A DNA stretch of 35,410 nt. Origin: Acidimicrobiales bacterium. Its GTDB lineage: Bacteria > Actinomycetota > Acidimicrobiia > Acidimicrobiales > Bog-793. Below, in pieces: positions 20,999 to 35,410 of the stretch. Every line of letters begins with the position of its first letter. The stretch's first letter is position 1. Both the position numbers and the translations under genes were made by a program. Under the pieces are notes generated by a model. It worked only from the letters and a program-made list of their open reading frames with translations, did not search any database and was not told where the DNA came from. The stretch lies in contig DATLTN010000002.1 in assembly GCA_035533595.1 (NCBI GenBank), forward strand, positions 1-35,410, read 5' to 3'.

Positions 20999-22507
20999 GT
21001 GGACCCGACGGATGCGGAGACAGCTGCGCCAGGCGCCGTCGGCGGGGCCACGGCGCCTGGCGGCGGGCCCGGCGGGCGCGCGCTGGCCCCGGTACCGCTC
21101 CGCGCGCGGCGGAGCTCCGCGGAGCCGCGGGCGTTGCTCTCCCGGCTCACGCCCTTTGCCGGCTACCTCGCCGTGCAGGCGCTCGCGGTCGCCGGGCTCG
21201 TCACCCCGCGCTACCCCGACAGCGCCACCTACCTGCAGCTGAGCTTCACCGGGAACTCGAAGATGCTCCCGACGATCCCCCTCCTCTACAACGTCTTCGG
21301 GAGCGACGCGCAGCGCGTCGCCTTTCAGGTCGTGCTCGCCGCCTTTGCCTGGTGGACCGTCGCCCGCATCGCCGCCACCGCCGTCGAGGACCGGCGCGTC
21401 GCGCTGGCGCTCCGCCTCGTGCTCCTCGCGCTCGGGGTCGTCGGCCCGATCGTGCTGTGGAACTCGGTGATCCTCTCGGAGTCGATCGCCCTCTCGCTCA
21501 CCGTGCTGCTGGTGGCCTACTGGTTCCGCTACTCCCTCGCCCCGAGCTGGCGCCTCGCGCTCCCCGCACTCGTCGTCACGACGGCGTGGATCTTCGCCCG
21601 CCAGGCGCACGTCATCCTCGGCCTGCTCGTCACCGCGGTCGCCCTCGGCGTCGCGCTCCGCCGGCGCAGGCTCCTCGCCTTCGGGATCGCCGGCGCTCTC
21701 TGCCTGGGGTGCGTGCTCGGCCTCGCGATCGTCGGCCGCGACCCCACCCAGAACGTCTCGGTGGGCAACGTCTCGGACACCATCCAGGACCGGATCCTCC
21801 CCAATCCGGGCTGGACCTCGTGGTTCGTGGCCCACGGCATGCCCTACGACGCGACGGTCGCGGCGGCGGCCGGCGGCCCCTACGGGACCGCGCTGCAGAA
21901 CGACCCGATCTTCTTCAGCTGGCTGACGACGAGCGGCACGAGCACCTATCTCCGCTTCGCCTTCACCCACCCCGGCTACCTGCTGTGGGACCCCCTCCCC
22001 GCCTTCACCGGGGAGCTCTCCTCCCTGCACTACGCGCCGACGACGCCGTACCCGACGACCCAGCCCGAGCCGACGGTGTCGATGCTCTCGCCGAACGCCA
22101 ACTGGGGGCGCCACCGTCAGGTCCTCCCGACCGTCGTCGAGGAGCTCGTCTTCCAGCAGGGCCAGGCGGGCGACGTCCTCACCCTCGCCGGGCTCACGGC
22201 CGCCGCGGTGGCGCTCGCCCGGCGCCGGCACGGGGCGGACCGCAGGAGGTGGCTGCCCGGCACCGTCGCGCTCTCGGCGATACCGCAGGGCTACTTCGTC
22301 TGGCTGGGAGGGGGCGAGGGGGAGCTCGACCGGCTCTCGATGGTCCTCGCCGTCTCGGTACGGGTCGGGCTCTGGATGACGCTCGCCTTCGCCGTCGACG
22401 GCCTGCTCACCGGGCGCGCCGGGCGGCCTACCGCGGCGCCCGCGGTCACGGGCGAGGGGGGCGGGGGCGCGCCCGCCGGAGATGTCGCGCCGGGCGGGGT
22501 TCACTAG
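20999..22507 (+). CDS. Polytopic membrane protein, GT-C-like
   Basis: A 502-aa protein with a proline/glycine-rich N-terminus and about nine or ten hydrophobic segments. After the first segment comes RYPDSATYLQL, with P73-D74-S75 in the position where GT-C glycosyltransferases keep an essential acidic residue. The later LWNSVILSESIALSLTVLL resembles the LSE segment of ArnT/PMT-like proteins. I infer a lipid-linked-sugar glycosyltransferase or a relative, without naming a substrate. The start is GTG at 20999 with GGGAGGAG four bases upstream. It is divergent from the CoA-transferase gene, with 138 bases between. Confidence 0.6.
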   Translation: MDPTDAETAAPGAVGGATAPGGGPGGRALAPVPLRARRSSAEPRALLSRLTPFAGYLAVQALAVAGLVTPRYPDSATYLQLSFTGNSKMLPTIPLLYNVFGSDAQRVAFQVVLAAFAWWTVARIAATAVEDRRVALALRLVLLALGVVGPIVLWNSVILSESIALSLTVLLVAYWFRYSLAPSWRLALPALVVTTAWIFARQAHVILGLLVTAVALGVALRRRRLLAFGIAGALCLGCVLGLAIVGRDPTQNVSVGNVSDTIQDRILPNPGWTSWFVAHGMPYDATVAAAAGGPYGTALQNDPIFFSWLTTSGTSTYLRFAFTHPGYLLWDPLPAFTGELSSLHYAPTTPYPTTQPEPTVSMLSPNANWGRHRQVLPTVVEELVFQQGQAGDVLTLAGLTAAAVALARRRHGADRRRWLPGTVALSAIPQGYFVWLGGGEGELDRLSMVLAVSVRVGLWMTLAFAVDGLLTGRAGRPTAAPAVTGEGGGGAPAGDVAPGGVH

Positions 22508-25365: not shown

Positions 25366-26010
25366 ATGCGGAGGGTCGCCGTCTCGGTCGCGCTCGGTGG
25401 GCTGGCGCTCGCGGCCGCAGCCTGCAGCGGCGGAACGAACCCGACCACCCAGGCGAACACGCTCCTGCAGGCGGGCATCGCGGCGGTGAAGGCCAACGAC
25501 TGCAGCGCGGCGGTCTCCGACTTCAACTCGATCCTGAAGAACGACCCGACCAACAAGGTCGACGACCAGTACGCGTACTACAACCGGGGCCTCTGCGAGC
25601 AGCTGAGCCACTCGACCACGGCGGCGATCAATGACTACCGCAGCTCGCTCGCGCTGAACCCGAACTACGTGCCGGCGCTCTACAACCTCGGGACGGCCGT
25701 CTCGCCCTCGTCGCCACAGGAGGCCGAGAACCTCTACCTGCAGGTGATCGCGATCCAGCCGGGCAACGCGAGCGCCCACCTCAACCTCGGCTACGTGTAC
25801 CAGACGCTCGGCCACAAGGCCTCGGCGATCCAGCAGTTCGCGCTGGCGGTGCACTACCAGCCGGCCTTCATCTCCAACGTCCCCGCCGCCCTGAAGAAGG
25901 CGGTCCAAAAGGCGCTGCCGGCCCTCGCCTCGCCGACCACGACCGGAGGGGCCGGGGCGAACAAGGCGACGACGAAGTCACCAGCGAGCGGGATTTCCGG
26001 GCCTACCTAG
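25366..26010 (+). CDS. TPR-repeat lipoprotein
   Basis: A 214-aa exported protein. MRRVAVSVALGGLALAAAAC is a compact lipoprotein signal with Cys20 as the likely lipidated residue. Residues about 55-165 form three or four TPR units (YAYYNRGLCEQLSHSTTAAI, YVPALYNLGTAV, SAHLNLGYVYQTLGHKASAI), which suggests a protein-binding role at the outer face of the membrane. The tail is Thr/Ala/Gly-rich. Start choice: ATG at 25366 has GGAG seven bases upstream; TTG at 25327 with AAAGGAG eight bases upstream is a real alternative that lengthens the n-region by 13 residues. It precedes the glycosyltransferase run by 62 bases. Confidence 0.83.
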   Translation: MRRVAVSVALGGLALAAAACSGGTNPTTQANTLLQAGIAAVKANDCSAAVSDFNSILKNDPTNKVDDQYAYYNRGLCEQLSHSTTAAINDYRSSLALNPNYVPALYNLGTAVSPSSPQEAENLYLQVIAIQPGNASAHLNLGYVYQTLGHKASAIQQFALAVHYQPAFISNVPAALKKAVQKALPALASPTTTGGAGANKATTKSPASGISGPT

Positions 26011-26072
26011 GGGTTCCCGCGTGGCCAGCGGCGCGGTAGAACTGCTGCGCGACCTAGACCCAGGGTGGTCCG

Positions 26073-27293
26073 TTGACGACAACTGAACTCTCGCAGCCGC
26101 CGGCGACGGAGCCCGCGGCGCTCGGCGAAGGGGAGGCGGGCGGGCTCCGGATCTCGGTCGTGATCCCCTGCCTCAACGAGGAGCGGTCGATCGCGGGCTG
26201 CGTCGACGAGGCCCTCGAGGGGCTGGCGGCGCTCGGCGCGAAGGGCGAGGTCGTCGTCGCCGACAACGGCTCGACGGACCGCTCGGTGGGCCTCGCCACC
26301 GAGCACGGGGCGCGCGTCGTGCAGGTGAGCGCCAAGGGCTACGGCAGCGCGCTGCGCGGTGGCGTCGCGGCGGCCGACGGCGAGCAGATCGTCGCCGGCG
26401 ACGCCGACGGCCAGCACGACTTCCGCGAGCTCGGCCGCTTCGTCGAGAAGCTCGACGAGGGCTTCGACCTCGTGGTGGGCAACCGCTTCGGCGGCGTGAT
26501 CGCCCCGGGGGCGATGAGCTGGAGCCACCGCTACATCGGCAACCCGATGCTCTCGGGCCTGTTGCGGCTGCTCTTCCACCCGAGGGTGCACGACGCACAG
26601 TGCGGGATGCGCGCCTTCACCCGCTCCTCGTTCCAGAAGATGGACACCCGCACGACCGGCTTCGAGCTCTGCCCCGAGATGGTCGTGAAGGCCGTCCGTC
26701 AGCACCTGCGCATCGGCGAGGTGCCGATCACGGTGCGCGCCGATGCCCGGGACCGGCCGCCCCACCTGCGGACGATCCCGGACGGCTGGCGGCACCTCAG
26801 CTTTTTGTTGATGTGCGCACCCAATTACCTGTTCATCGCCCCGGGCGCGCTGCTGTTCGCGGTCGGAGTAGCGATCGTGAGCTGGCTGTTCGTCGGCCCG
26901 CAGCACCTCGGGGGGGTGCCGCTCGACACTCGCGCCGAGCTCTTCGGCCTGGTGCTCGCCTCCCTCGGCTTCCAGATCCTCAGCATCGGCCTCTTCGCCC
27001 GCGTCGTGAGCTACGCGGAGCCACGGCGCGCCCGCTCGCTCGGCCGCTTCTTCAAGTCGCTCCGCCTCGAGCAGGGGCTCGCCGTGGCGGGGCTCCTCAT
27101 CGCCGTCGGTCTGGGCGGCGGCATCACCGAGTACGTCGAGTGGGCGAAGAAGGGCTTCGGGGTGCTGCAGGACGACCGCGCCGTGATCTTCTTCGCGATG
27201 TGGCTCGTCCTCGGCGTCCAGATCGGCTTCGCCTCGTTCTTCCTCAGCATGATCGGGGTCAGTCGCGGCACCTGGCTCGGCGAGCCGACCTGA
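26073..27293 (+). CDS. GT2 family glycosyltransferase with C-terminal membrane domain
   Basis: A 406-aa protein. Residues about 26-240 are a GT-A domain of the polyprenol-phosphate sugar synthase (DPM1-like) type: VVIPCLNEERS, VVADNGSTDRS and the metal-binding DAD at 110-112 in GDADGQHD, then GNRFGG. About four transmembrane helices follow (from around 250 to 400). Such enzymes make polyprenyl-phosphate sugars used as donors by GT-C membrane transferases, which fits the two YfhO-like proteins downstream. The start is TTG at 26073 with AGGGTGG upstream; no better start is close. First gene of the five-gene run. Confidence 0.88.
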   Translation: MTTTELSQPPATEPAALGEGEAGGLRISVVIPCLNEERSIAGCVDEALEGLAALGAKGEVVVADNGSTDRSVGLATEHGARVVQVSAKGYGSALRGGVAAADGEQIVAGDADGQHDFRELGRFVEKLDEGFDLVVGNRFGGVIAPGAMSWSHRYIGNPMLSGLLRLLFHPRVHDAQCGMRAFTRSSFQKMDTRTTGFELCPEMVVKAVRQHLRIGEVPITVRADARDRPPHLRTIPDGWRHLSFLLMCAPNYLFIAPGALLFAVGVAIVSWLFVGPQHLGGVPLDTRAELFGLVLASLGFQILSIGLFARVVSYAEPRRARSLGRFFKSLRLEQGLAVAGLLIAVGLGGGITEYVEWAKKGFGVLQDDRAVIFFAMWLVLGVQIGFASFFLSMIGVSRGTWLGEPT

Positions 27294-27309
27294 CGATGGG
27301 GCCGTCGCG

Positions 27310-29685
27310 ATGAGGAGGAGCCCCTGGAGCGGCGGCGACGTCATCGCCGCCCCTGCCGGGGGCCGCGCGGAGGAGTCGGCAGCGCTCGACGCCCGCGAGG
27401 CCGAACCACCCCTGTCGGAGCCTTTGCCCCGAGTCCCGCGGCCGAGGAGCCTCCACCAACGCCTCGGCCCGCTTGGCCGGGCCTTCGCCGCCGACGAGCC
27501 GCTCCCGGGCGCGCCGTGGTGGTCGCGCCACGGCCACCTGCTGCTCGTCCTCGGAGCGGTGCTCTACGGCCTCATTGCGCTCGAGCCGGAGCGCCTGCAG
27601 GTCGCCTTCCCGAACGACGCGTCGGTCCACCTGCTCACGGTCGCGACCGCGGCGAAGGACATCGCCGCTGGTCACCTGCCCTTCGGGAGCTGGTTCCCCG
27701 ACCTCGCCACCGGCTCGCCCTTCTTCCTCCACTACCAGAGCACCCCCGCGGTGCTCACCGCGCTCCTCGCGAGGCTGATCGGCGTTGCCAGCGCGTTCGG
27801 CATCGTGCAGTGGCTGCTCTTCGCGTTGCTGCCGCTCTCGGTCTTCTGGTCCGGCCGCCTCTTCGGCCTCGGGCGGTACGCGTCGGCGATCGCCTCGGCG
27901 ACCGCGCTCCTCTTCGTGAGCGCCCGCAGCTACGGGGTCGAGCAGCAGAGCTACGACTGGCTCGGGTCGGGGATGTGGACCCAGCTCTGGGGGATCTGGG
28001 TGCTCCCCCTCGCCTGGGGGGCGAGCTACCGGGCGATCAGCCGCCGCGAGTTCCGCGCCCTCGCCGTCGTCCTCCTCGGCGCGACGATCGCCTTCCACTT
28101 CCTCACTGCCTACCTCGCGGGCCTCTCGCTCGTCGTCTTCGTGCTCATCCGGCCGACCCGGATCCTCCGGCGCGCCTGGTGGGCAGCGGTCGTCGGTGGC
28201 GCGGCGGCGGCCCTCACCTTGTACGTGTGGCTCCCCCTCGAGCACTACAGCACCTGGAACGCGGGCAACGAGTTCCAGGTCGGCACCTTCTGGAACGACT
28301 CCTTCGGGGCCCGCACCGTGCTCGGGTGGCTCGTCAGCGGCCGCCTCTACGACAACGGCCGCTTCCCGGTCGTGACGATCCTCGTGGGAGTGGGTCTCGT
28401 CTCCGCGATCGCCCGCTGGCGTCGCGACGAGGCGGCGCGCGCCGTCGTCGGGGTCTGGCTGCTCAGCCTCGCCCTCTTCTTCGGTCGTCCGACCCTCGGC
28501 TTCGTGATCGACCGGCTCCCCGGCAACAGCACGCTCCTGCTCCACCGCTACGTGATGGGCGTCCACCTCGCGGGGATGCTCCTCGCGGGGATGGGCGCTG
28601 TCTCGATCGGCCAGGTCGCGCTGTCGCTCTGGCAACGCCTCGCGGCGCGGCGCGAAACCGAGAGCGGGGCGCGACCGCGGCGCTGGTGGCAGCCGGTGCT
28701 CGCCGCCGCGGTCGTGATCGGCGCGCTCGCCCCGGCGTGGAGCCAGCTCCTCAGCCGCGACCAGGCGAACGCCGCCTCGATCGCGGCGCAGCGGGCGCTC
28801 GACACCACCGAGGGCGCGCAGGTGAATTCCCTCATCGCGACGACCCGCTCGCTCGGTGGTGGCCGCATCTTCGGGGGTCTGCTCGCCGACTCGTGGGAGC
28901 AGACCTTCCGCGTCGGCCAGATCGAGACGTGCATCTACCTCGCCGACGTCGGCGTCGACGCGGTGGGCTTCTCGCTCCGCACGTCGGCGCTGATGAACGA
29001 CCCGGAGGCGGACTTCCAGGAGGCCAACCTCGCCGACTACGACGCCTTCGGCATTCGCTTCCTCATCCTGCCGGCGGGGATGGCGCCGCCGGTCACCGCG
29101 CGCCGCGTCGAGCAGCAAGGACAGTACGTCCTCTGGTCCGTCGCCTCCCACGGCTACGTCCAGGTCGTCGACACCGAGGGGGAGCTCTCGGCGAACGCGA
29201 ACGACCTCGGCGCGCAGACCGTCGGCTTCCTCCGGTCCACCCTCGCCGGCCAGGGGATCTACCCGACCGTCGCGTTCAGCGGGAGCCCCGCGGCGGCCCC
29301 CACCTTCTCCAGCGGCAACCCGGTGGGATCTCCCGGCTCGGTGCTGAGCAGTGTCGACTCCCTCGACTCCGGCGCGTTCACGGCGACGGTGACCGCCAAC
29401 CGCGACGCCGTCGTCCTGCTGAAGGCCTCCTACGACCCGGGCTGGCAGGTGACCGTCGACGGCGTCCCCACAGCCACCGAGATGATCGCCCCGGCCTTCG
29501 TGGGGGTCGAGGTCGCCCCCGGCACGCACCTCGTCAACTTCGTGTACCACGGCTACCCCCACTACAACCTCCTCTTCGCGCTCGACCTCCTGGCGCTCCT
29601 CGCGGTCCTCTTCGGCGCTCACCTCGGCCGGTTGGCCAGTCGTCTCCGGCGCCGCGTCTCCGAGGCGCGGGCGCGCGCCTCGTGA
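27310..29685 (+). CDS. YfhO-like polytopic membrane protein (paralogue 1)
   Basis: A 791-aa membrane protein with a Pro-rich cytoplasmic N-terminus (1-70), about 10-12 hydrophobic segments to about 500, then a large outer-face part. After the first membrane segment, PNDASVHLL (N102-D103) matches the acidic first-loop site of GT-C transferases. The C-terminal block KASYDPGWQVTVDGV...HLVNFVYHG (about 702-745) is the beta-domain typical of YfhO-type proteins, which are linked to glycosylation of lipoteichoic acid or surface polymers. It shares the whole layout with the protein at 32113-34311. The ATG lies 16 bases after the GT2 gene; the stop overlaps the next start. Confidence 0.78.
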   Translation: MRRSPWSGGDVIAAPAGGRAEESAALDAREAEPPLSEPLPRVPRPRSLHQRLGPLGRAFAADEPLPGAPWWSRHGHLLLVLGAVLYGLIALEPERLQVAFPNDASVHLLTVATAAKDIAAGHLPFGSWFPDLATGSPFFLHYQSTPAVLTALLARLIGVASAFGIVQWLLFALLPLSVFWSGRLFGLGRYASAIASATALLFVSARSYGVEQQSYDWLGSGMWTQLWGIWVLPLAWGASYRAISRREFRALAVVLLGATIAFHFLTAYLAGLSLVVFVLIRPTRILRRAWWAAVVGGAAAALTLYVWLPLEHYSTWNAGNEFQVGTFWNDSFGARTVLGWLVSGRLYDNGRFPVVTILVGVGLVSAIARWRRDEAARAVVGVWLLSLALFFGRPTLGFVIDRLPGNSTLLLHRYVMGVHLAGMLLAGMGAVSIGQVALSLWQRLAARRETESGARPRRWWQPVLAAAVVIGALAPAWSQLLSRDQANAASIAAQRALDTTEGAQVNSLIATTRSLGGGRIFGGLLADSWEQTFRVGQIETCIYLADVGVDAVGFSLRTSALMNDPEADFQEANLADYDAFGIRFLILPAGMAPPVTARRVEQQGQYVLWSVASHGYVQVVDTEGELSANANDLGAQTVGFLRSTLAGQGIYPTVAFSGSPAAAPTFSSGNPVGSPGSVLSSVDSLDSGAFTATVTANRDAVVLLKASYDPGWQVTVDGVPTATEMIAPAFVGVEVAPGTHLVNFVYHGYPHYNLLFALDLLALLAVLFGAHLGRLASRLRRRVSEARARAS

Positions 29686-31250
29686 CCGCGCGGCGCTACG
29701 TCGTCGTCGGCGGGGGCCCCGCTGCAGCGGCGGCGGCCGCCGCCCTCAGCGCGAGGGGGGCCGCCGTGCTCGTCGTCGAGCCGGGCCTGCGGCTGGAAGA
29801 TGACCGGGAGGCGAAGCGGCGCCGCCTCGCGATGGCCCCGCCGGAGGACTGGAGCCCGGACGACCTCGAGGTCTTCTCCTACGTGAAGGACCGCGGGGCC
29901 GGTCTCGGCCAGAAGCGCCTCTTCGGCTCCGAGTTCCCCTACGCGGATCCCGGCCAGGCGCCGCGCGCGATCGGGGTGGGCGCCCACCCCTCCTACGCGG
30001 CGGGTGGGCTGAGCAATGTCTGGGGGGCCGGGCTCCTCGCCTACGGGGAGGCGGACCTCGCCGACTGGCCGATCGGCTGGGAGGAGCTCGCCCCTCACTA
30101 CGCCGCGGCCGGCGCGCTGATGCCCCTCTCCGCCGAGCACGACGAGCTGGCGGCGGGCCATCCCCTCTTCCGGGAGCCCGACGGCGCCCTCGTGCGCTCG
30201 GACGAGGGGGAACGCCTCCTCTCGCGCCTGCGCCGTCATCGGAAGCTCGGCGCGCGTGGCTGGACGGTCGGCGCCGCCCGCCTCGCCGTGCGCCCCGGTC
30301 GCCCGGCCCCCGCCTCCGGCTGCGTGTACTGCGGCCGCTGCCTCGAGGGCTGCCCGTACGGCCACATCTACAGCGCCAGCCAGAGCATCGACTCGCTGGC
30401 CAGTTCGGGGGCGATCGAGTACCGCCCCGGGGTGCTCGTCGAACGGCTCTCCGAGGCCGGTGGCGAGGTGCGGCTGGGCCTGCGCGACGCCGCCTCCGGC
30501 GAGCCTTCGGAGCTGGTCGCGGGGCGCGTCTACCTCGCGGCGGGTGCGCTCTCCAGCACCTTCATCCTCCAGCGCTCGGGCATTCTCCCCGAGGCCGTCG
30601 AGCTCCTCGACAGCCAGACGCTCTACCTGCCACTGCTTTGGGCGGGCACCCCAGCCCCACGGCGCGGCGACGATCGCTACGCCCTCGCGCAGGCCTTCTG
30701 CCTGCTCGACAGCCCCGCCGTCTCCCCGCGGACGGTCCACCTCTCCCTCTACGGCTACAGCGCCGACCTCCCCGCACGGGTCCGTGACCTGCGACCGGGC
30801 CTCGCGCGGATGCTCGGACCGCTCCTCGAGCGGGGGACGCGTCAGCTCGTCTTTGCGATCGCCTTCCTGCACAGCGACGACTCGACCCGCATCACCTCAC
30901 GCCTCGAGGGCGAGGGATTCGTCCTCGAGGCAGGGGACCGCACCCGCGCCCTCGCCGCGGTCGCCCGGCTGAAGAAGAAGCTGCTGCACGACTTCACGCC
31001 TCTCGGGATGCTCCCCCTCACCCCCGCCGCGGAGATCGCACTGCCGGGCGCCGGCTACCACTACGGGAGCTCGGTGCCGATGAGCGCTGCTCCGACGAGC
31101 CGCGAGTCGGATCTCGTCGGCCGGCCCTCCGGTTGCGAGCGCGTCCACGTCGTCGACGCCGCCTGCTTCCCGACCATCCCGGGAGGGCCGATCACCCTCT
31201 CGATCATGGCGAACGCCCACCGCATCGCGACCGAGACGGCGGGCTCGTGA
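29682..31250 (+). CDS. GMC-type FAD oxidoreductase with CxxCxxCxxxCP motif
   Basis: A 522-aa flavoprotein. The N-terminal dinucleotide fold is YVVVGGGPAAAAAAAAL (residues 6-22), with VVEPG as the ribose-binding strand end. AGGLSNVWGAG (107-117) and the C-terminal VHVVDAACFPTIPGGP are GMC signatures, and GYHYGSSVPM matches the catalytic-His loop. Odd features: residues 214-225 read CVYCGRCLEGCP, the spacing of a 4Fe-4S cluster, and the position usually holding the second catalytic His/Asn is Gly/Pro. Likely oxidises an alcohol group of a sugar or lipid, or feeds electrons onward; substrate unknown. The GTG at 29682 overlaps the preceding stop. Confidence 0.85.
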   Translation: MTARRYVVVGGGPAAAAAAAALSARGAAVLVVEPGLRLEDDREAKRRRLAMAPPEDWSPDDLEVFSYVKDRGAGLGQKRLFGSEFPYADPGQAPRAIGVGAHPSYAAGGLSNVWGAGLLAYGEADLADWPIGWEELAPHYAAAGALMPLSAEHDELAAGHPLFREPDGALVRSDEGERLLSRLRRHRKLGARGWTVGAARLAVRPGRPAPASGCVYCGRCLEGCPYGHIYSASQSIDSLASSGAIEYRPGVLVERLSEAGGEVRLGLRDAASGEPSELVAGRVYLAAGALSSTFILQRSGILPEAVELLDSQTLYLPLLWAGTPAPRRGDDRYALAQAFCLLDSPAVSPRTVHLSLYGYSADLPARVRDLRPGLARMLGPLLERGTRQLVFAIAFLHSDDSTRITSRLEGEGFVLEAGDRTRALAAVARLKKKLLHDFTPLGMLPLTPAAEIALPGAGYHYGSSVPMSAAPTSRESDLVGRPSGCERVHVVDAACFPTIPGGPITLSIMANAHRIATETAGS

Positions 31251-32116
31251 GGATCGCCGTCACCGGCGCCTCCGGTTACCTCGGAGGACAGATCGTCGAC
31301 CACCTGCGCGGCGAGGGCCACGAGGTGCTGCCGCTCTCGCGCGCCGGCGTGGACGGCCCGCCCTTCTCGCTCGGCGAGCCCTTCCCTGCCGCGTCGCTGC
31401 GGGGGGTCTCGGTGGTCGTGCACGCCGCGTGGGACTTCGCTGCCCGCGACGACGAGGTCCGCACCCGCAACGTCGAGGGGGCGCTGCCCCTCCTCGACGC
31501 CGCCGCGTCGGAGGGCGCCCGCATCGTGCACATCTCGTCGCTCTCGGCGCACCACGGCTGCCGCTCCCGCTACGGGGCGGCGAAGCTCGCGCTCGAGGAG
31601 CTCGTGGCATTGCGCGGCGGCTGCTCGCTCCGCCCCGGGCTCGTCTACGGGCCGACTCTCGGCGGGCTGTTCGGCACCATCGCAGGCGCGGTCGGGCGCC
31701 TGCCGGCGCTCCCGGTGCCGACGGCGCGGCGCGTCTCGCGCATCTTCTTGAGCGACGACCGGACGCTCTCGGCGGTGGTGCTCGCGCTCGCCACCACAGG
31801 GGTGGTGCCGGAGGGTCCGGTCTTCGCCGCGCACGCCAGCCCGCTCACCCTTACCTCGCTCGTGCGGCGCATCGCCGCGGCCCGCGGCCGGCACGTCGCC
31901 ACCGTGCCCCTGCCCTGCGCGACCACCTACCACCTCCTGCACCTGCTCGAGGCGGCGGGCCTGCGGCCGGGCTTTCGCGCCGACAGCCTGCTCGCGATCG
32001 CGGATCCGGTGCCGATCTCCGAGCTGGCGCGACTGTCGCCCTCCCCGGTCGCCTTCGGGGAGCTCGACTTCGCCGCGACGCTCGGGCCGTCCGCCCGCCC
32101 CCCGACCGCGCGATGA
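31247..32116 (+). CDS. NAD-dependent epimerase/dehydratase (extended SDR)
   Basis: A 289-aa short-chain dehydrogenase of the sugar epimerase/dehydratase or 3-beta-hydroxysteroid dehydrogenase type. The cofactor loop VTGASGYLGGQIVDHL lies at the N-terminus, ISSLSAHHG carries the Ser, and SRYGAAKLALEEL the YxxxK pair. RPGLVYGP is the usual following strand. The product could be a modified nucleotide sugar, or a keto group made with the GMC enzyme. The GTG at 31247 and the stop overlap both neighbours by four bases, so it is part of one translational unit. Confidence 0.9.
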   Translation: MRIAVTGASGYLGGQIVDHLRGEGHEVLPLSRAGVDGPPFSLGEPFPAASLRGVSVVVHAAWDFAARDDEVRTRNVEGALPLLDAAASEGARIVHISSLSAHHGCRSRYGAAKLALEELVALRGGCSLRPGLVYGPTLGGLFGTIAGAVGRLPALPVPTARRVSRIFLSDDRTLSAVVLALATTGVVPEGPVFAAHASPLTLTSLVRRIAAARGRHVATVPLPCATTYHLLHLLEAAGLRPGFRADSLLAIADPVPISELARLSPSPVAFGELDFAATLGPSARPPTAR

Positions 32117-34311
32117 CCGCGGGGCTCGCGGCGACCCCGACGGCTGCCGCGCCCTCGTACCGTGCAGGCGGGCGGAGGCGAGCCGACCCCGCCCGCCTCG
32201 GCCCGCTCGCCCTCGTCGCAGCGGTCGTCGCCGTCAACCTCGTCGTCTTGCACCAGGAAGCCTCTGTCGTCTCGACGTTGAACGACAGCTCCTTCCACGA
32301 GCAGATGGTCCGCTACGCGACGCTGCAGTTCGACCGGGGCCACTTCCCCCTCGACGGCTGGTTCCCCTACCTCGGCCTCGGCTCGCCCCTCTTCCTCCAC
32401 TACCAAAGCCTCGGCGCCATGGTGGCGGGCCTTCTCGGTCTCGTGATCGGCCCCGACCACGCCTTCAGCCTGCTGCTCTACCTGCTGCTCTCGCTGTGGC
32501 CGATCTGCATCTACCTCTCGGCCCGCCTGCTCGGCCTCACCCGCTGGCAGGCGGCCGCGGCGGCGCTCGTCTCCCCGCTCCTCACGAGCGTGACGAACGT
32601 CGGCTACGAACAGATCAGCTACCTCTGGGTCGGCTACGGCGTCTGGGCGCAGCTGTTCGGAATGTGGATGCTCCCGCTCTCCTGGGGCTTTTCGGCGCGC
32701 GCCGTCCGCACCGGTCGTGGCTACGCGGTCGCCGTGCTGTTCGCCAGCCTCACCATCGCTAGCCACTTCTTGTCCGGCTACCTCACCGCTGCGCCGCTCC
32801 TCCTCCTCTTGCTCTGCCGGCCGGGGGAGTTCCGCAGCCGCCTCCGGCGAGTGCTCGTGATCGGGATCGGCGCAGCCCTCTCCTGCGCATGGCTGATCGT
32901 GCCGCTCGAGCAGTTCAGCGGCTACGCGTCGGTGAACGAGTTCCTCCAGGGGACCGCGAGCGCCGACTCCTACGGCGCCCGCCAGGTGCTCATCTGGCTG
33001 TTCGACGGCAGCCTCTTCGACTCGGGCCACTTCCTCCCAGTCCTCACGGTCCTCGTCGGCGGCGGCCTGCTGGTCGCGATCCGCAGGTGGAGGGCCGACG
33101 AGACGACGCGCCTGCTCGCGCTGCTCTTCGTCACCTGCCTCGTCCTCTTCTTCGGGCGGCCGACGCTCGGGCCGCTCATCGACGTGCTCCCCGGCAGCCG
33201 CGACCTCTTCCTCCGCCGGTTTCTGATGGGCGTCCAGCTGAGCGGCATCTACCTCTCCGGGGTGGCGATCACGGCGGCCGTGGCGGGGTTACGCAATCGG
33301 CTGGCCCGCACGCCGGCCGCCTTCCTCGCCCGACGGGAGGGCCGCGCCGTCTTCGCCCTCGCCACCGTCGCGCTGGCGCTCACCGTCCTCGCCCCCTCGT
33401 GGAGCGCGCTCTTCGCGAGCGACAGCCGGGACGGGGCCGCCATTCGCCAGCAGATCGCCGCCGACGCCTCCGAGGGTGGGGAGGTCGGCACGCTCGTCGC
33501 GCAGGCGCTCGCCCTCGGTCCCGGCCGCTTCTTCGCGGGGATGCCCAACGACAGCTGGGGGCCGAACTTCGCCGTCGGCGAGGTCCCGGTGTTCAAGTAC
33601 CTGGCCAACTTCGACGTCGACATCGTCGGCTACACCCTCCGCACCGCGTCGCTCATGACCGACCCCGAGGCCTACTTCGACGAGTACGACCCCGGCGACT
33701 ACCCGCTCTTCGGCGTCCGCTACCTGATCCTCCCGTTGGGCCGGCAGCCGAGCCCCTCGGCGAGGCACGTCGCGACCGAGGGCCCCTACGCCCTGTGGGA
33801 GGTGGTCGGAGTCGGCTACCTCCGTGTCGTCGACACGCAGGGGTCGATCGCCGCGAACCGGGCGAACATCGGCGAGAACACCGCCGACTTCGTCCGTTCG
33901 ACGCAGCCCCTCCACGGTCCCTATCCGGTGATCGCCTACGGCGCCACCCCTGTCGCGCCGACGACCGTGTCAGGGGCGGTGCCCTCCGGCGACGCCGGGC
34001 GCGTGCTGAACTCGGAGCCGAACCTCGAGGAGGGGAGGATCACCGGGACCGTCGATGCGATCCGCCCGGCGGTCGTCGTCTTCTCCGCCTCCTTCGACCC
34101 GGGCTGGGTGGCAAGGGTTGACGGCGCTCAGGTCCCCACCGAGATGGTCGCACCGGCCCTCGTCGCCGTGCCCGTGGGCGCCGGCCGGCACCGTGTCTCG
34201 TTCACGTACGCGGCGCCCGGTGACTACCCGCAGTACTTCAGCCTCGCTGGCGTGACCCTCGTCGCGCTCGTCGTCCTCCCTCGCTGGCGGAGGAGGCGCG
34301 CGGCTCGGTAG
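32113..34311 (+). CDS. YfhO-like polytopic membrane protein (paralogue 2)
   Basis: A 732-aa paralogue of the protein at 27310-29685. Shared landmarks in the same order: LNDSSFHE after the first membrane segment (N57-D58), LHYQS, GYEQISYLWVGYGVWAQLFG, HFLSGYL, ALLFVTCLVLFFGRPTLG, FFAGMPNDSWGPNF, GVRYLILP and the C-terminal ASFDPGWVARVDG...HRVSFTYAAPG block (about 657-705). Probably a GT-C-like transferase that uses a lipid-linked sugar on the outer face. The ATG overlaps the SDR stop (ATGA). It is the last gene of the run; 144 bases separate it from the converging collagen-like gene. Confidence 0.78.
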   Translation: MTAGLAATPTAAAPSYRAGGRRRADPARLGPLALVAAVVAVNLVVLHQEASVVSTLNDSSFHEQMVRYATLQFDRGHFPLDGWFPYLGLGSPLFLHYQSLGAMVAGLLGLVIGPDHAFSLLLYLLLSLWPICIYLSARLLGLTRWQAAAAALVSPLLTSVTNVGYEQISYLWVGYGVWAQLFGMWMLPLSWGFSARAVRTGRGYAVAVLFASLTIASHFLSGYLTAAPLLLLLLCRPGEFRSRLRRVLVIGIGAALSCAWLIVPLEQFSGYASVNEFLQGTASADSYGARQVLIWLFDGSLFDSGHFLPVLTVLVGGGLLVAIRRWRADETTRLLALLFVTCLVLFFGRPTLGPLIDVLPGSRDLFLRRFLMGVQLSGIYLSGVAITAAVAGLRNRLARTPAAFLARREGRAVFALATVALALTVLAPSWSALFASDSRDGAAIRQQIAADASEGGEVGTLVAQALALGPGRFFAGMPNDSWGPNFAVGEVPVFKYLANFDVDIVGYTLRTASLMTDPEAYFDEYDPGDYPLFGVRYLILPLGRQPSPSARHVATEGPYALWEVVGVGYLRVVDTQGSIAANRANIGENTADFVRSTQPLHGPYPVIAYGATPVAPTTVSGAVPSGDAGRVLNSEPNLEEGRITGTVDAIRPAVVVFSASFDPGWVARVDGAQVPTEMVAPALVAVPVGAGRHRVSFTYAAPGDYPQYFSLAGVTLVALVVLPRWRRRRAAR

Positions 34312-34455: not shown

Positions 34456-35410
34456 TCAGTCCGCGTAGGCGGTGATGACCACCGGCCCGGCGGCGGTCTG
34501 CCCGTTGCCGGTCGGTCCACCGGTGGGCGCGCTCGCGATCACCTGGCCGCTCGAGAGGCCGGAGGTCGCGTTCACGCCACAAGCGAGGTCGAGCTGGAGG
34601 GTCCCGGGGGTCAGGCCCGTGAGGAGGAAGCTCGCGGTGCGGCGCGCCTCGAAGGTCAGCGAGGGCTGGGAGACCGTGTCCAAGAGCTCCGTGAAGCCGA
34701 CCTGAGTCGACGTCCCGTGCTTGACCAGCCCACACGAGACTTCAACCGGGCCGGAGAGGCTCACGAGCGTCGAGACCGAGATGGTGAGGTCGGCATTCAC
34801 GAGCACCCGTCCGGTCGAAGGAACGGTGAGGCTCATCGAGAGGTTGGTCGAGTCCAGCGTGTTCAGGCCGGTGGACAGCGCATAGGTGGCGCCGCCAGTC
34901 GTGCCGTATTGCGTGGCGCCGACCAAGGTGCCGATGCCGATCGTTCCCGTCGGGCCTGTGGCACCGGTGGCACCCAACCCGGTGGCGCCGGTCGCGCCAA
35001 CCCCGGTGGCGCCGGTCGCACCTGTGTTGCCCTGCAGGCCGACGTTGCCCTTTCCGCCTGTCGGGCCGGCTGCACCCGTAGGACCGGCAGCGCCGGTCGC
35101 ACCCGTGTTGCCCTGCAGGCCGACGTTGCCCTTGTTGCCCTGAGCACCAGTGGAACCGACGGCCCCGCTTGCGCCGGCTGGGCCCTGCGGTCCGATCGGG
35201 CCCTGCGGGCCGGTGGTGCCGGAAGCGCCCGTGGCGCCGGTAGCGCCGACCCCGGTGGCGCCGGTCGCACCCGTGTTGCCCTGAAGGCCGATGTTGCCCT
35301 TGGCGCCCTGAGCGCCGGTGGCGCCGGTGGCACCCGTCGGGCCCTGCGGTCCGGTCGGGCCCTGGGCGCCGGTCGCACCCGTGGCACCGGTGGCGCCGGC
35401 GGCGCCGAAC
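34456..35410 (-). CDS. Collagen-like (Gly-X-Y) surface protein, C-terminal part (N-terminus outside window)
   Basis: An open frame enters from the right edge, at least 317 codons. About 145 residues are Gly-X-Y triplets dominated by [12 protein letters not shown] and GNV, with short breaks (GVG, GLG). The last about 165 residues form a beta-rich, non-collagen domain starting near [13 protein letters not shown] and ending VVITAYAD. Bacterial collagen-like proteins with a globular tail fold as trimers and sit on the cell surface or spores. Two Cys (in VSCG and LACG) could pair. The start, signal peptide and anchor lie outside the window. Confidence 0.9.
35011..35301 (-). repeat. 42-base near-identical repeats inside the collagen-like gene
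   Basis: Copies at 35011-35052, 35092-35133 and 35260-35301 differ at only one to a few bases and encode the KGN(V/I)[10 protein letters not shown] segment. Offsets are 81 and 168 bases, both in frame. This suggests recent duplication within the triple-helical part. Confidence 0.8.

Follow-up and report, generated by a model that had tools for sequence, protein, structure and literature searches.

A Predicted Transmembrane Glycosylation Operon With a Recurrent GMC-SDR Redox Pair in an Acidimicrobiales Bacterium

We analyzed a stretch of 35,410 nucleotides from an Acidimicrobiales bacterium (contig DATLTN010000002.1 of assembly GCA_035533595.1), hereafter the window, in which five consecutive genes encode a GT2 glycosyltransferase, a YfhO-like membrane protein, a GMC flavoprotein, a short-chain dehydrogenase/reductase (SDR) and a second YfhO-like protein (Table 1). 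The operon is real and mostly of a known kind; its new and apparently undescribed element is the GMC-SDR redox pair, which recurs across many bacterial phyla. With a confidence that falls somewhat short of even, we read the five genes as a multi-component transmembrane glycosylation operon with built-in sugar remodelling by the GMC and the SDR. The broader proposal, that the two proteins form a widespread and hitherto undescribed flavin/Fe-S epimerase pair for polyprenyl-phosphate sugars, serving GT2 and GT-C systems in many phyla as a non-homologous counterpart of DprE1/DprE2, is a serious possibility that we hold more loosely.

The five genes lie on the same strand between positions 26073 and 34311 and are joined by one 16-base gap followed by three 4-base overlaps. 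The exact frames agree with the single transcription unit that an earlier, sequence-only reading of the window had described, and Pfam and NCBIfam confirmed the family labels given there to these genes and to the TPR gene upstream. Terminator-like sites inside the unit were not above shuffle expectation (4 found; 2.1 +/- 1.7 expected).

Relatives of the GMC were gathered from the genome collection by scanning with two peptide patterns that did not contain its Cys motif (see below), which yielded 80 loci. An SDR related to that of the window was found directly downstream of the GMC in 43 of them, the median gap being about 5 bases and several gene pairs overlapping by 4 bases, and in a Pedosphaera metagenome-assembled genome the two proteins shared one 834-aa reading frame (L085:8998-11502), a natural fusion unless the assembly is in error. 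In 14 loci, no more than 9 kb separated the GMC from a homologue of the window GT2, which in a few cases was shorter or cut by a contig end; these loci belonged to Verrucomicrobia, Planctomycetes, Acidobacteria, Chloroflexi, Actinobacteria, Cyanobacteria, Melainabacteria, and Bdellovibrionota. Of 35 GMC genomes searched in full, 22 contained a close GT2, almost always as a single copy, and in 14 of these 22 it adjoined the GMC; the probability of such proximity by chance is below 1e-17, assuming a generous 2.5% per genome. The GT2 was present in 19 of the 32 genomes with an SDR-adjacent GMC and in 6 of the 31 without (Fisher P 0.0012), a value to be taken as a guide because we chose the genome sets ourselves and they are phylogenetically non-independent. 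Gene adjacency in the GMC-SDR-GT2 core exceeds chance. A minimum of 10 changes on the GMC tree is required to explain GT2 proximity, and 9 to explain SDR adjacency, so that linkage of the GMC to these two partners was gained or lost repeatedly. In the Caulobacter genomes of loci L084 and L087, the GT2 homologue was far from the GMC and the match contained an in-frame TGA in both cases.

The exact five-gene set was recovered in this genome only, among 395 genomes of the class, seven of which encode this kind of GMC; none of the other GMC neighbourhoods examined in the class contained the set (one of these contigs measuring merely 3 kb). We thus rejected the idea that the five genes are conserved as a set. 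Of the co-occurrence that the sequence-only reading had suggested looking for among actinobacterial genomes, what stands is the recurrence, across phyla, of the GT2-GMC-SDR core.

The GMC protein matched GMC_oxred_C over the cut-off (29.5 bits) and displays the N-terminal FAD motif (G10/G12), while the catalytic pair H460 and N511 was found in 80 of 81 sequences. Its relatives carry a near-invariant CxxCxxCxxxC motif (C214, C217, C220, C224), in which C214, C220, and C224 are invariant across the 81 sequences and C217 is missing from two, and this conservation is informative because the scan patterns did not contain the motif. The AlphaFold model (pLDDT 91.7) aligned with GMC enzymes at Z 28-32. 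Foldseek and VIA-align placed Burkholderia FAD-glucose dehydrogenase (FAD-GDH; Z 32.4) and Gluconobacter fructose dehydrogenase (Z 31.5) at the top; below them came pyranose 2-oxidase at Z 30.2, cholesterol oxidase at Z 29.3, and C-glycoside oxidase at Z 29.0. FAD-GDH also came first with the sequence profile (4e-18). DprE1 belongs to a flavoprotein family other than GMC, and its identification with our protein, which is a GMC both by Pfam and by fold, was rejected. In the FAD-GDH of Burkholderia cepacia, three Cys bind a 3Fe-4S cluster, and the four Cys of our GMC sit in the loop that matches this ligand loop (PMC6719666), an analogy from which the GMC is predicted to hold an Fe-S cluster. 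No signal peptide was seen by eye and the FAD motif starts at residue 5, which suggests that the GMC is cytosolic. The GMC resembles the Fe-S GMC sugar dehydrogenases (FAD-GDH, fructose dehydrogenase) in its fold, its Cys-cluster loop, and its membership of a sugar-oxidising family, but differs from them by four Cys in ferredoxin-like spacing, a predicted cytosolic location, an identity of 14-18%, and an SDR partner in place of the hitchhiker and cytochrome c subunits. On a 4.7-kb contig of the same genome (C67; L028:1817-3394), another GMC of this family (about 39% identity) lies divergent to a gene whose product has a distant GT2 domain.

The GT2 matched Glycos_transf_2 (Pfam, 86.5 bits) and resembled the AglJ, PpgS, and PgfS models of NCBIfam with scores below the equivalog cut-offs; the GT2s of the modules matched the AglJ, dolichyl-phosphate hexose transferase and PpgS models in 12 of 12 cases. 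The best solved relatives of its profile in the PDB were ArnC (9e-21) and dolichol-phosphate-mannose (DPM) synthase (1.5e-18), and its C-terminal part contains 4-5 predicted transmembrane (TM) segments. Synthesis of a polyprenyl-phosphate sugar is the predicted role of the GT2, and the two solved relatives support the assignment to this type that had been made from sequence. As for the SDR, it matched the Epimerase family (PF01370) at 42 bits, and its motifs TGxxGxxG (NAD), S97, Y109, and K113 were conserved in 45 sequences. The solved relatives of its profile include sugar-type SDRs, such as relatives of GalE and RmlD, and we predict that it is the ketosugar reductase partner of the GMC. By analogy, the best reading of the two enzymes is that they would change one stereocentre by oxidation then reduction, as a non-homologous analogue of DprE1/DprE2.

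The two YfhO-like proteins are paralogues (44% identity over about 670 residues). Both passed the curated PF09586 cut-off, solely via the C-terminal domain, in agreement with their earlier assignment to the YfhO family, and PF09586 was matched in 11 of 11 family members. YfhO-like 1 has about 11 TM segments and a C-terminal beta domain. D58 and H62, in the first external loop, are invariant in the family, as expected if these proteins are catalytic GT-C enzymes; a PDB sequence search with the 11-member profile returned zero matches. YfhO-like homologues were present at nine places, one of them in the same genome, without GT2, GMC, or SDR nearby, and in the other examined genomes the YfhO homologues within the order stood by themselves. 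A third YfhO-like paralogue of the same genome stands alone on contig C47 (L072:8669-10954) and is 58-59% identical to YfhO-like 2. Among the related loci, the multi-TM neighbours in L106, L110, and L086 are GT-C-family proteins that matched Glyco_transf_22/PMT, PTPS_related, and PMT_2, and the membrane proteins in L094, L096, L098, L141, and L153 lack a Pfam match, are predicted to span the membrane 9-14 times, and show, by eye, an acidic residue in their first external loop. In L106, from the cultured Catelliglobosispora koreensis, the genes for the membrane protein, the GMC, the SDR, and the GT2 overlap one another. The closest parallel to the layout of the operon was L110, with a GT-C candidate, a GT2, a second multi-TM protein, a GMC, and an SDR in a row.

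The sequence-only reading had known of no described system with this combination. The pgf protein-glycosylation operon of Streptococcus mutans (pgfS-pgfM1-pgfE-pgfM2), required for modifying the adhesin Cnm with a predicted site in its Thr-rich region, encodes a membrane GT2, a membrane protein annotated as GT-C type, an SDR epimerase (PgfE, a predicted UDP-glucose 4-epimerase), and a paralogue of that membrane protein (PMC5856776). Four of the five functions are thus common to both operons, arranged alike and with two related GT-C-type membrane proteins, whereas the operon described here has a GMC inserted before the SDR, 4-base overlaps, and an SDR that is no clear GalE. We consequently rejected the idea of a wholly undescribed combination; of a bacterial GMC-SDR glycosylation pair, we found no description in the literature searched (subscription journals being mostly outside its coverage). 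The scores against the NCBIfam Pgf equivalogs (PgfS 32, PgfM1 14-30, and PgfM2 16-22 bits) are far below the cut-offs (500, 1400, and 1500), so that the operon is Pgf-like in layout without being a Pgf orthologue. Judging from this comparison, its glycosylation skeleton is a known kind of system and the GMC is the added element.

The pgf operon is one branch of the multi-component transmembrane glycosylation systems, which have been described in the literature and some of which include auxiliary epimerases (PMC8035078, PMC11127046), the text of the former review making no mention of epimerases. Systems of the CsbB-GtcA-YfhO type (PMC8035078) combine a GT-A polyprenyl-phosphate-sugar synthase with a YfhO-family transferase, for both of which the operon encodes candidates, whereas two YfhO-like proteins and a GMC-SDR pair are present here. 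The closest precedents for the proposed epimerisation are the mycobacterial DprE1 and DprE2, which oxidise then re-reduce decaprenylphosphoryl ribose (PMC9993113), and the three-component systems that vary lipid-linked pentofuranoses via epimerases, such as Citrobacter ORF13; the authors describing the latter systems knew no other epimerases in O-antigen side-chain systems (PMC11127046). The proposed logic is the same, with oxidation by a flavoprotein and reduction by an SDR before GT-C transfer, but the flavoprotein is here a GMC and the donor synthase a GT2 instead of a phosphoribosyltransferase.

In the pathway that we propose, the GT2, as inferred from its family, would attach a sugar, supplied by a nucleotide donor, to polyprenyl phosphate on the inner side of the membrane. 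The cytosolic GMC would then oxidise one hydroxyl of the lipid-linked sugar, leaving a ketone, with electrons flowing from FAD to the predicted Fe-S cluster and on to a further acceptor, and the SDR would reduce the ketone with NAD(P)H to give the epimer. A flippase, perhaps one of two GtrA proteins encoded elsewhere in the genome, would then flip the lipid-linked sugar, and the two YfhO-like GT-C candidates would hand it over to one or two acceptors on the outside. What the analysis establishes is the gene anatomy, the intact catalytic motifs, the fold of the GMC model, and the linkage of GMC, SDR, and GT2 across phyla; the assignment of the steps is our proposal. The sequence-only reading had outlined a similar route, in which activation on a lipid carrier is supported by the relatives of the GT2 and oxidation or epimerisation by the GMC and the SDR is plausible.

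Several observations weigh against this pathway. Its substrate, product, and acceptor are ones that we infer. No flippase gene (GtrA/SMR/MATE) is present inside the operon, and the two GtrA-family genes of the genome, both over the cut-off, lie elsewhere. The AlphaFold (AF2) model of YfhO-like 2, built from four sequences, was unusable (pLDDT 44) and was set aside; in addition, hhalign comparison of the YfhO profile with three module membrane proteins found zero matches, so that shared ancestry of the GT-C candidates across modules is unsupported. The SDR also matches the HpnA, OleD, and 3beta-HSD-like models and thus resembles lipid-acting SDRs such as OleD, and in the structural comparison cholesterol oxidases appear near the GMC in fold. 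A clade of alphaproteobacterial GMCs of the same family has no adjacent SDR (L103, L104, L113-L115, L118-L120, L122-L124, L127, L128, L131, L133, L140, and L152), and GMC and SDR also occur together in polysaccharide-type loci without the window-type GT2. Because GMC-SDR loci without GT2 and GMCs without SDR exist, the substrate of the pair may be a nucleotide sugar or another compound instead.

The alternative that the GMC and the SDR convert a nucleotide sugar or a soluble sugar in the cytosol before the GT2 acts, the remainder being an ordinary Pgf-like system, is unlikely to be correct but deserves attention. It would agree with the nucleotide-sugar SDRs (GalE and RmlD relatives) among the solved relatives of the SDR profile, with the predicted activity of PgfE, and with the polysaccharide-type clusters, in which the donors are normally nucleotide sugars. 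A single NAD enzyme is normally enough for nucleotide-sugar epimerisation, for which a flavin/Fe-S oxidase with a reductase would be unusual, and the specific linkage to a polyprenyl-phosphate GT2 favours a lipid-linked sugar. That the product of the pair is an oxidised sugar, or one modified in another way, and no epimer, the ketosugar being kept or its keto group used by another enzyme, seems improbable: the nearest structures of the GMC, FAD-GDH and fructose dehydrogenase, are indeed sugar-oxidising and 37 of the 80 GMCs lack a directly downstream SDR, but the tight coupling to the SDR, up to fusion, points to consecutive oxidation and reduction. We consider it more improbable still that the substrate of the two enzymes is a lipid alcohol (an isoprenoid, a hopanoid, or a sterol-like compound) that the glycosyltransferases would glycosylate; the lipid-type models matched by the SDR and the proximity of cholesterol oxidases would fit, but the structures and the profile closest to the GMC are those of sugar dehydrogenases. 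Finally, the five genes could have been assembled locally and share a transcript without sharing a function, as the restriction of the exact set to a single genome of the class and the solitary YfhO homologues elsewhere might suggest. The translational overlaps and the significant cross-phylum linkage of GT2, GMC, and SDR make this very improbable.

Some actinobacterial GMC-SDR loci, mycobacterial ones among them, had no window-type GT2 nearby (L132, L137, L138, L143, L144, L148-L150, and L157), and several of them share members of cluster 12 (another GT2-type gene), cluster 20 (a multi-TM protein), or cluster 31 (small secreted proteins).

The operon is flanked in the window by genes of housekeeping look, as judged by eye. 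The TPR gene upstream, for which ATG 25366 is one of several candidate starts and TTG 25327 is preceded by a better-placed AAAGGAG, is probably outside the core module. Further upstream, and separated from the operon by a PPDK-like gene, a 502-aa membrane protein has as its sole clear homologue in the related loci a 532-aa protein encoded beside GT2, GMC, and SDR in L096; it is a possible third transferase of the pathway. A gene for a collagen-like protein is convergent with the operon, and because the surface proteins targeted by Pgf in streptococci are likewise rich in Thr, this protein is, speculatively, a candidate acceptor of the operon's sugar.

Table 1. Genes of the operon and neighbouring features in the window.
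Feature	Coordinates	Strand	Remarks
502-aa membrane protein	20999..22507	+	phmmer 1.1e-9 to L096:12709-14307; no Pfam match
TPR lipoprotein-like protein	25366..26010	+	Pfam TPR; 62 bases upstream of GT2 start
GT2, predicted polyprenyl-phosphate-sugar synthase	26073 (TTG)..27293	+	Pfam Glycos_transf_2
YfhO-like 1, candidate GT-C transferase	27310 (ATG)..29685	+	PF09586; gap 27294-27309 (16 bases) after GT2
GMC flavoprotein	29682 (GTG)..31250	+	GMC_oxred_C; 4-base overlap with YfhO-like 1
SDR, Epimerase family, 289 aa	31247 (GTG)..32116	+	PF01370; 4-base overlap with GMC
YfhO-like 2, paralogue of YfhO-like 1	32113 (ATG)..34311	+	PF09586; 4-base overlap with SDR
Collagen-like protein, Thr-rich Gly-x-y repeats	34456..35410	-	PF01391 Collagen 8e-17; runs off contig end

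Extracytoplasmic glycosylation normally uses the sugar as supplied by the cytosolic donor. If our proposal is correct, the coupling of a conserved GMC-SDR pair to a polyprenyl-phosphate GT2 would widen the idea of auxiliary epimerases (PMC11127046), probably to hexose-type donors, and this extension would reach phyla whose surface glycans have been little studied. The GMC and the SDR would then constitute an enzyme pair that can be assayed directly.

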